Shown here: positions 48,883-51,314 of the stretch, one piece after another
How the letters are laid out: every line of letters begins with the position of its first letter
Numbering within the stretch: the first letter of the stretch is position 1
Assembly: GCA_028285105.1 (NCBI GenBank)
Contig: JANQQE010000027.1
Location: 62,001 to 126,000, forward strand
From: Alphaproteobacteria bacterium
GTDB taxonomy: Bacteria; Planctomycetota; Phycisphaerae; UBA1845
DNA: 64,000 nt
Direction of reading: 5' to 3'
Notes under the pieces: generated by a model
The model's input: the letters and a program-made list of their open reading frames with translations, nothing else
The model's database searches: none
What the model was told of the DNA's origin: nothing
Made by a program: the position numbers and the translations under genes

Positions 48883-49335
48883 ATGACGATACAAACGTCG
48901 CGATTCGGACCGCTGGATGTTAACGAGGAGAGGTTCATCACATTTGAGCAGGGCATACTGGGTTTTCCGAATCAGAAACAGTACGCCTTGATTCAGACGG
49001 GAGACAATAGCGGGTTTTATTGGCTGCAAGCCGTCGACCGTGCAGAACTCGCGTTTGTCGTGTGCGATCCTCGGCTATTTGTGCAGGACTACCGTGCTCC
49101 GATCAAGTCGGAAGAGTTGGCCAATCTGGGGGTGACCGACCCGGATGACGCGCAGGTCTTCATCATTGTGAACAAGATCGACAAGGTGCTGACCGGGAAC
49201 TTGCAGGGACCATTGGTAATCAACGTCAAGACGCACGTGGCGCGACAATTGGTGTTGAGCGACCGCAAGTACTCGACGCGACATCCGTTGATGCGATTGC
49301 CAGAACCGCAACCGGCAATGGCCAAGACGGGTTAG
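48883..49335 (+). CDS. fliW: Flagellar assembly factor FliW
   Basis: 'RFGPLDVNEERFITFEQGILGFPNQKQYALIQ', 'FYWLQAVDRAELAFVVCDPRLF', 'LVINVKTHVARQLVLSDRKYSTRHPL'. Confidence 0.95.
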   Translation: MTIQTSRFGPLDVNEERFITFEQGILGFPNQKQYALIQTGDNSGFYWLQAVDRAELAFVVCDPRLFVQDYRAPIKSEELANLGVTDPDDAQVFIIVNKIDKVLTGNLQGPLVINVKTHVARQLVLSDRKYSTRHPLMRLPEPQPAMAKTG

Positions 49336-49405
49336 GGCCCATCATTCGCACTGGGTTTGAGGCAGTTCGCATTTGATTGACCCTACAACCGGTGCGTGGT
49401 CTCGG

Positions 49406-49488
49406 TGGCAAGACAGACGCTCAGATGGATATCGAGCCAATTGGTTTGCAAGGTTTCGCCGACTCAGCAAACCGAAGTCGTCTTGCCA
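49406..49488 (+). promoter_or_regulatory. Candidate three-way-junction RNA in the csrA leader
   Basis: P1 49406-49414/49480-49488 (9 bp) plus 49416-49418/49477-49479; P2 GCTC-a-GAT[GGAT]ATC-GAGC 49419-49437; P3 GGTTTGC/GCAAACC 49443-49449/49467-49473. Confidence 0.5.
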
Positions 49489-49532
49489 ACAACTTAGCGC
49501 AGATATAGGCCGACCCGAGGAAGGAGCCACGG

Positions 49533-49772
49533 ATGTTGGTGCTATCAAGGACGCGCGATGAAACGATTATGGTCGGAGACGACATTGAAATAACCGTCGT
49601 TGACGTTCGAGGAGACAAGGTTCGGTTGGGCATTAAAGCGCCAACCACCATCCCCGTTCATCGCAAGGAAGTCTATGAAGCAATCAAGACGGAAAACACA
49701 AACGCCGCGACACTCAGTGTAGATCAAATGGCACAGGTGATTCAGCGGCATGAACATACAAGTGTGCAATAG
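49533..49772 (+). CDS. csrA: Carbon storage/translational regulator CsrA
   Basis: 'MLVLSRTRDETIMVGDDIEITVVDVRGDKVRLGIKAPTTIPVHRKEVYEAI'. Confidence 0.98.
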   Translation: MLVLSRTRDETIMVGDDIEITVVDVRGDKVRLGIKAPTTIPVHRKEVYEAIKTENTNAATLSVDQMAQVIQRHEHTSVQ

Positions 49773-49811: not shown

Positions 49812-49863
49812 GCTGGCCCGACAAGGATGAGAGGGTCAGCGTAATGCAATCAAGGAGGATTGC
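49812..49863 (+). promoter_or_regulatory. Candidate dual CsrA-binding leader of the flagellin gene
   Basis: GCTGGCCC[GACAAGGATGAGA]GGGTCAGC (49812-49840) and GCAATC[AAGGAG]GATTGC (49846-49863) sequestering the SD; ATG 49866. Confidence 0.7.
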
Positions 49864-49865
49864 TC

Positions 49866-51314
49866 ATGAGTCGTATCACAAACAACATACCCGCTATCGT
49901 TTCTCAGAGAGAACTGTCGCAGTCGCAGCGCTCGCTTAGTACGAGCTTGCAGCGTTTGTCGAGCGGTCTGCAAATCAACCGCGGTGCCGACAACCCTGCC
50001 GGGCTGATCGTATCCGAGCGGCTGCGTTCGGAAGTGGCCGCAGTCACCCAGGCGATCGACAACTCGCAGCGGGCCATCAACGTCATCGCCACGACGGAAG
50101 GTGCTCTCAACGAGGTTAACTCGATCCTGACCGACATCCAGGCGCTCGTCGTAGAAGCCGCCAACCGTGGAGCGTTCAGTGATGAAGAAGTCGACGCCAA
50201 CCAATTGCAGATCGATTCTGCGATTGAGTCGATCACGCGAATCGCCAATACGACTACGTTCGCCGGTCGAAAGCTGCTCGATGGTTCGCTCGACTATGTG
50301 ACGAGCGGCGTTGACACGGCGCAGTTGGCAGACGTTCAGGTGGAAGCAGCGAACTTCGGACGCGCAAGCTTCATTCCAGTTCAGGTTGACGTGACGGCAG
50401 CCGCCGAGAAAGCCACGCTAGAATTCCCCGGAGCAACCGTCGGTTCGGCAGACGTTGCTCTCGACGTTCAGGGTCCGAAGGGAATCGTCACGCTGAACTT
50501 CCCGGCAAGCGCACCGATGGATGCGATCGTCATCGCGATCAACAACCAGACCGACGCGACCGGCGTCACTGCAGAATTTGTAAACTCCGCGACGCAATCC
50601 GGAATTCGCTTCCTGAGCGAAGAGTATGGCAGCAAGCAATTTGTTTCCGTCAAGGCACTTGATACGGGTGGTCCATTCCCGGTGACGGACACATCCGGCG
50701 GAACGGTGACGCGAACCAACGGTGTAGACGCACAAGCCACTGTCAATGGGGCCGCAACGATCGCCGACGGACTCAACCTGTCGATGAATTCGCGATTGCT
50801 CAACGTCAAGATCGCGCTCGACGAAGGGCTCGGAACCCAGGCGACCGGCAGCAGTACGTCGTTCGCGATCACTGGCGGTGGTTCGCTCTTCCAGCTTGGA
50901 CCGCGCGTCAATACAAACCAGCAGTCGAACATCGGGGTGCCGGCGATGCAGGCGAACAAGTTGGGCAATCGCATCGACGGTTTCCTGTCGCAGCTCGGAA
51001 GCGGACAGGCATTCGCCCTTCGTACCGGAAACTTCGACCAGGCATCTGACATTGTTGATTCAGTCATCACGGAAGTGACAACCCTCCGTGGGCGATTGGG
51101 TGCATTCGAGCGAAACAACTTGCAACCGAACATCACGCAGTTGCAGATCACGGCTGAAAACCTGACTGCGTCGGAATCGATTATTCGCGATACCGACTTC
51201 GCTCAGGAAACCACCGAGTTGACGCGTTCGCAGATTCTGGTGCAAGCCGGTACATCCGTCCTGTCCATCGCCAACGCTCAACAGCAAAACGTATTGACGC
51301 TGCTTGGTGGATAG
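49866..51314 (+). CDS. Flagellin
   Basis: 'MSRITNNIPAIVSQRELSQSQRSLSTSLQRLSSGLQINRGADNPAGLIVSERLRSEVAAVTQAIDNSQRAINVIATTEGAL'; C-terminal 'QILVQAGTSVLSIANAQQQNVLTLLGG'. Confidence 0.97.
   Translation: MSRITNNIPAIVSQRELSQSQRSLSTSLQRLSSGLQINRGADNPAGLIVSERLRSEVAAVTQAIDNSQRAINVIATTEGALNEVNSILTDIQALVVEAANRGAFSDEEVDANQLQIDSAIESITRIANTTTFAGRKLLDGSLDYVTSGVDTAQLADVQVEAANFGRASFIPVQVDVTAAAEKATLEFPGATVGSADVALDVQGPKGIVTLNFPASAPMDAIVIAINNQTDATGVTAEFVNSATQSGIRFLSEEYGSKQFVSVKALDTGGPFPVTDTSGGTVTRTNGVDAQATVNGAATIADGLNLSMNSRLLNVKIALDEGLGTQATGSSTSFAITGGGSLFQLGPRVNTNQQSNIGVPAMQANKLGNRIDGFLSQLGSGQAFALRTGNFDQASDIVDSVITEVTTLRGRLGAFERNNLQPNITQLQITAENLTASESIIRDTDFAQETTELTRSQILVQAGTSVLSIANAQQQNVLTLLGG

Follow-up and report, generated by a model that had tools for sequence, protein, structure and literature searches.

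A three-way-junction RNA is encoded between fliW and csrA in a genus of uncultured planctomycetes. Judged from comparative sequence analysis, this is a real structured RNA on the csrA sense strand, and it apparently represents an uncatalogued, genus-restricted structure of the csrA leader. A role in csrA control is most likely, which we state with moderate confidence. More specifically, we propose that the csrA leader is structured and has the junction as an upstream domain peculiar to this genus, which modulates access to the start codon; we infer this mechanism and give it about even chances.

The analysed stretch of DNA, hereafter the window, comprises 64 kb and contains flgK, a gene for a FlgL-like protein, fliW, csrA and flagellin, in this order (Table 1). 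At the level of the locus, the parts of a FliW-CsrA-flagellin switch are present: all domains occur, and a CsrA-type ANGGAN hairpin covers the flagellin Shine-Dalgarno sequence (SD). The junction lies wholly inside the fliW-csrA intergenic region, and the closest downstream gene start is that of csrA. Across the order, fliW was located upstream of csrA with a long intergenic region at all 30 loci fetched. The comparison set consisted of five species of one genus (G000-G004; Phycisphaerae, near MAG UBA1845).

A second csrA gene is found in every genome of the genus (G000:C32:30284-30466, minus strand; L118-L122). Its leader carries a conserved GGTG...CACC-G-TTTTTT stretch, which is terminator-like in most genomes; a hairpin with GGA is located at the SD.

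Table 1. Features of the fliW-csrA-flagellin region, in positions of the window.
Feature	Position	Strand	Remarks
fliW	48883-49335	+	PF02623, E 3.5e-37
Conserved 5' flank GGTGCGTGGTCTCGG	49391-49405	+	88% mean pairwise identity versus 45% in the spacer just upstream
P1, 5' strand TGGCAAGAC	49406-49414	+	45/45 pairs conserved across the five species; pair 4 changes from C-G to U-A
P1 extension, GAC x GTC	49416-49418 x 49477-49479	+	After a bulged A
P2 stem-loop, GCTC-a-GAT[GGAT]ATC-GAGC	49419-49437	+	Stem in 5/5 species; loop variable
P3 stem-loop, GGTTTGC x GCAAACC	49443-49449 x 49467-49473	+	P3b cap; outer stem pairing kept
P3 loop, invariant 12 nt GTTTCGCCGACT	49453-49464	+	12/12 columns identical in five species
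P1, 3' strand GTCTTGCCA	49480-49488	+	Partner of 49406-49414; from folding and comparison
Invariant 37-nt csrA leader AGCGCAGATATAGGCCGACCCGAGGAAGGAGCCACGG, SD GGAAGGAG	49496-49532	+	37/37 columns identical in five species
Predicted csrA start hairpin	49502-49546	+	From folding; predicted in all five species
csrA, 79 aa	49533-49772	+	PF02599, E 1e-24; Pfam CsrA is residues 1-52
Flagellin SD hairpin, GCAATC[AAGGAG]GATTGC	49846-49863	+	ANGGAN hexaloop; sequence in all five species
Flagellin (fliC/hag)	49866-51314	+	PF00669 and PF00700

Folding and conservation of the junction

An earlier note, made from a single sequence, had described a compact nested structure in this non-coding DNA, and re-reading of the sequence located all of its helices at 49406-49488. 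The junction is both the minimum free energy and the centroid structure in RNAfold (-38.8 kcal/mol). It is 3.4 s.d. more stable than shuffled sequences (z -3.40), none of 200 shuffles being equal, and a z of -3.4 or lower was reached by 1.1% of 1598 segments of the same size across the 64 kb. The stability of the single sequence is thus just moderately unusual. A 9-bp inverted repeat by itself is to be expected by chance, with 11 in the window versus 19-27 in shuffles. For the junction, the comparative evidence is decisive.

All five species share the fold, and each of their sequences adopts the P1-P2-P3 plan, with P3 of one species (G003) being rearranged when folded alone and some longer segments of G003 favoring a different structure. 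In a structure-guided count, in which the P3 bulge was placed by structure, 119 of the 120 helix pairs form across the five species. Covarying pairs, the absence of which the earlier note had named as an argument against the fold, are present. With the structure-guided alignment, on which the clearest compensatory changes in P3 depend, two-sided changes occur at four positions, namely P1 pair 4 (C-G to U-A), P2 pair 3 (U-A to C-G, in G003) and P3 pairs 3 and 5 (U-A to A-U, and G-U; U-A to C-G). With the unadjusted MAFFT alignment covariation is weaker, comprising two pairs, with 24-28 of 500 shuffles scoring as high; five sequences provide low covariation power, and the structure was first spotted in one of the five. 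The GAC/GTC extension of P1, part of the original description, holds for the reference sequence but is not kept across species.

The consensus energy from RNAalifold was -29.1, compared to -14.9 ± 2.9 in column shuffles (z -4.9, 0/500), and the structure conservation index had a z of +3.4 (1/500 column shuffles). The helices are therefore compensated beyond shuffled controls, as in a conserved structured RNA motif, more weakly so on the unadjusted alignment. Identity among the five species is 84-93% in P1 and 100% over the 12 nt of the P3 loop, against 45% in the spacer past the fliW stop and 54% at fliW fourfold sites. The P3 loop GUUUCGCCGACU is among the invariant parts of the region, as is the UCGG adjoining P1, within UCGGUGG of the flank. 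Loop and flank together make up the conserved unpaired bases, while the strands at the junction vary (AGAC/AACC/GACC), as do the P2 loop and the linker from the junction to csrA (59% identity).

These results bear on whether the junction might be a non-functional chance fold in the spacer of close relatives. Only five species are compared, and 1.1% of the segments in the window are as stable as the junction, as such a fold would allow. However, shuffled alignments reach the consensus energy in none of 500 cases and the conservation index in one, and local conservation is far above that of the flanking spacer and of synonymous sites, which makes a chance fold very unlikely. The nested structure of the earlier note is thus upheld as real and beyond chance, both by the folding z and by the five-species comparison. 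A coding explanation was ruled out, as G003 has gaps of one and two bases that disrupt all reading frames.

The covariance model scored 96-119 bits on the plus strand versus 13-18 bits on the minus strand. In addition, several changes in P1 and P3 produce G-U pairs on the plus strand, which would be A-C mismatches if read on the minus strand. Together, these G-U intermediates and strand scores indicate an RNA read from the sense strand of csrA rather than a palindrome in the DNA.

The consensus of sigma-54 promoters is TGGCACG-N4-TTGC, in which GG and GC are fixed. A GG-N10-GC motif (TGGCAAGACAGACGC) occurs at about -127, overlapping P1, in all five species, and could belong to a sigma-54-like promoter; alternatively, P1 could be a protein-binding inverted repeat, so that in either case its conservation would reflect a DNA-level site instead of an RNA. 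In Pirellula, csrA is reported to be a target of sigma-54 (PMC12316311), which is in line with the promoter. However, agreement with the consensus is limited to 6-8 of 11 bases, none of the five species has the TT of TTGC, and such a site leaves unexplained both the P3 loop and why the 3' arm is conserved, with compensatory changes and G-U pairs. A DNA-level site as the reason for the conservation of P1 is, in our view, improbable. No convincing match to sigma-28 or sigma-70 promoters was found.

The GGA motif in the P2 loop

The earlier note drew attention to a GGA in an apical loop and considered a CsrA-titrating element. This GGA is present in P2 of the reference species but absent from the P2 loop of the other four, which read AGAGTAATGAT, TGAGTGAGTAC, TGTGTGCTTAC and CGAGGTTTGGG, and no GGA of the junction is common to all five. 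Because it is private to one species, the P2 GGA cannot be the conserved function. In titrating RNAs of the CsrB/RsmZ type, several hairpins present a conserved GGA in their loops, an arrangement that the junction does not share, and titration found no comparative support. Binding or titration of CsrA via the P2 loop would fit with the ANGGAN hairpins that are common upstream of csrA across the class, but even in the reference species P2 has GGAU in its loop, with GAU/AUC as the closing pairs, instead of an ANGGAN hexaloop. We regard this function of the junction as highly improbable.

Predicted start hairpin of csrA and leader of flagellin

RsmE/CsrA proteins bind the ANGGAN hexaloop with high affinity, E. 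coli csrA is autoregulated, hag is repressed through SD-overlapping sites, and FliW antagonises CsrA (PMC7652899; PMC4894983). In the genus studied here, the csrA leader is predicted to fold as GAUA...GCCGAC-CCG-a-GG[AAGGAG]CC-a-CGG-AU-GUUGGU...UAUC, with the helices GAUA/UAUC, GCCGAC (49509-49514) x GUUGGU (49535-49540) and CCG/CGG. In this predicted hairpin, the SD occupies the GG[AAGGAG]CC hexaloop, codons 2-4 are paired, and a second GGA is situated at ACGGAUG. The GGA motifs noticed earlier in the csrA SD region are hence borne out, in the context of CsrA sites. The AAGGAG hexaloop SD and ACGGAUG are invariant in the genus, and GGAAGGAGCC is found in most of the order; conserved GGA sites thus lie over the SD and start, as in an autoregulatory csrA leader.

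Other genera of the order have a different 5' strand, GCAUCGGCAU, which is complementary to the same csrA start, AUGUUGGUGC, and encloses the SD. This complementarity is seen order-wide (L006-L030 and others, -30 to +10 of csrA). Upstream complementarity to the start exceeded that of shuffles in the 26 CATCGG leaders (mean z -1.7) but not in the other 73 (+0.3); as the leaders were grouped by the motif itself, this contrast characterizes the motif and does not test it independently.

An ANGGAN hexaloop hairpin was present in 44 of 100 Phycisphaerae csrA leaders (L006-L030 and L036-L115, scored from -170 to -12 of csrA), where 1.0-4.9 were expected according to two shuffles and two definitions. 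The sequence of the hexaloop varies among these leaders (ACGGAG, AGGGAA, ATGGAA). Because of these ANGGAN statistics and the known systems elsewhere, CsrA autoregulation via the predicted csrA start hairpin is likely. Autoregulation, one of the functions suggested in the earlier note, is accordingly plausible, but the evidence indicates the invariant SD/start hairpin rather than the three-way junction.

Two further observations concern the neighboring sequences. Hairpins with an ANGGAN hexaloop also occur in 12 of 97 fliW leaders versus 1.2 expected (L006-L030, L036-L115), a hint of possible CsrA action on fliW in some lineages. The 5' codons of csrA (49533-49580) look nucleotide-constrained, with 6 of 7 fourfold sites invariant in the first 16 codons versus 14 of 27 later, although these numbers are small.

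An ANGGAN hexaloop hairpin covers the SD in 55 of the 58 flagellin genes that follow csrA in Phycisphaerae, and from its sequence the flagellin SD hairpin of the window is likely a CsrA site. Within the flagellin leader (49812-49863) there are two likely CsrA sites, this hairpin and GCTGGCCC-GACAAGGATGAGA-GGGTCAGC, the latter kept in four of the five species.

Occurrence of the junction

With Rfam 15, no family scored above its gathering threshold in the 64 kb, and at E ≤ 10 nothing relevant was found, the sole match, to a miRNA on the opposite strand, being due to chance. A covariance model of the junction (R1), a check proposed in the earlier note, recovered all five genus members among 114 genomes of the order. 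It gave one weak additional match (G046, E 0.0037), which was judged to be chance and is about 2 Mb from csrA of that genome; the model thus found no convincing match in the 109 other genomes. The only off-locus match of a DNA search in 60 relatives was a stretch of 28 nt in a dnaN-like reading frame of 417 aa, which was regarded as chance. In these searches, the junction occurs as one copy per genome in one genus. The same intergenic place in 35 relatives of the order shows mild structure on average (z -1.3), and the rest of the order gets by without the junction. None of the papers searched describes a csrA leader RNA from Planctomycetota.

The junction resembles three-way-junction riboswitches and leader aptamers in its closing helix P1, two hairpins, conserved terminal loop and 5' leader position, and the lack of an Rfam match would be compatible with a new metabolite- or ion-binding aptamer for csrA. 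Unlike in such riboswitches, the junction strands, a frequent site of aptamer pockets, are the variable part; the conserved bases reside in the P3 loop and flank, not at the junction. Restriction to a single genus, with a single copy per genome, also speaks against an aptamer. Such an aptamer is therefore scarcely probable here.

Proposed role of the junction in csrA control

The flank contains two copies of CGGU, which are complementary to the two copies of GCCGAC in the P3 loop and the leader; GCCGAC is complementary also to GUUGGU of csrA. RNAalifold predicts a helix between flank and leader (P0, CGGU x GCCG), and no stretch within 400 nt complements the P3 loop better than the flank does. 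A candidate pseudoknot between UCGCCGA of the P3 loop and UCGGUGG of the flank overlaps P1 and involves bases that do not vary; shuffling a truncated flank gave it no support, as 59% of shuffles were as good. These long-range pairings are without covariation support because the bases are mostly invariant.

We propose the following mechanism for the junction as an upstream domain of the csrA leader. The invariant 37-nt segment is predicted to fold over the ribosome-binding site and start of csrA, and by analogy with E. coli csrA and B. subtilis hag, CsrA would bind this SD/start hairpin and repress its own translation. The junction may serve as a scaffold that places the flank (CGGUGCGU...UCGGUGG) near the leader. 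There, the flank could compete for GGCCGACC, the strand otherwise paired with csrA codons 2-4, and the junction would thereby tune start-codon access. FliW and flagellin would set the level of free CsrA acting on the start hairpin.

A more elaborate version is a protein- or ligand-responsive switch, in which the flank and the P3 loop alternately pair with the GCCGAC that masks the start, so that a signal gates translation besides CsrA autorepression. In the model, opening the csrA start costs 6.7-7.9 kcal/mol; therefore, such a switch would need a ligand, a protein or co-transcriptional folding. We consider it doubtful. If true, an RNA switch upstream of csrA would be an added layer of control, none having been found described for FliW-type systems.

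As the evidence linking the junction to csrA translation is indirect, the strongest rival is a separate unit, i.e. an element for RNase processing or stabilization, or an sRNA, derived from the fliW-csrA mRNA. It would set the levels of both mRNAs separately and leave csrA translation untouched. The position of a stable, compact fold between two genes of an operon is consistent with this, as are the variable P2 loop and csrA linker, expected for a self-contained domain, and the invariant P3 loop could be a target site for a protein or RNA. However, that the leader is invariant and the flank complementary speaks for coupling to csrA, and no terminator-like site follows the junction on the plus strand. 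A separate unit is possible, yet unlikely.

Comparison with known systems and implications

Autoregulation through the E. coli csrA leader was described by Yakhnin et al. 2011, in the account given of it in a review (PMC7652899). As in that leader, CsrA-type GGA sites overlap the csrA SD here, and by analogy translational repression would be expected. Unlike in E. coli, the predicted SD hairpin also pairs codons 2-4, a conserved junction lies upstream, and the CsrA sites are putative. With the hag leader of B. subtilis and the flaA leader of C. jejuni, the locus shares the adjacency of fliW, csrA and flagellin and the flagellin SD in an ANGGAN hexaloop (PMC7652899, PMC4894983), but the junction is upstream of csrA, not of flagellin, and is without a conserved GGA loop. 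FliW is anti-correlated with the BarA-UvrY system, the driver of CsrB/RsmZ-type sRNAs (PMC4682653). The junction is like these titrating sRNAs in being a structured RNA near csrA and unlike them in being without repeated conserved GGA hairpins.

Most knowledge of control by CsrA comes from gammaproteobacteria, Bacillus and Campylobacter. The locus studied here suggests that the FliW-CsrA-flagellin logic is at work in Phycisphaerae too, with RNA sites that can be read from the sequence, and that in one genus the csrA leader has gained a conserved junction RNA. If the junction gates csrA translation, it would constitute a further input to the level of CsrA, for which the known antagonist there is the protein FliW.
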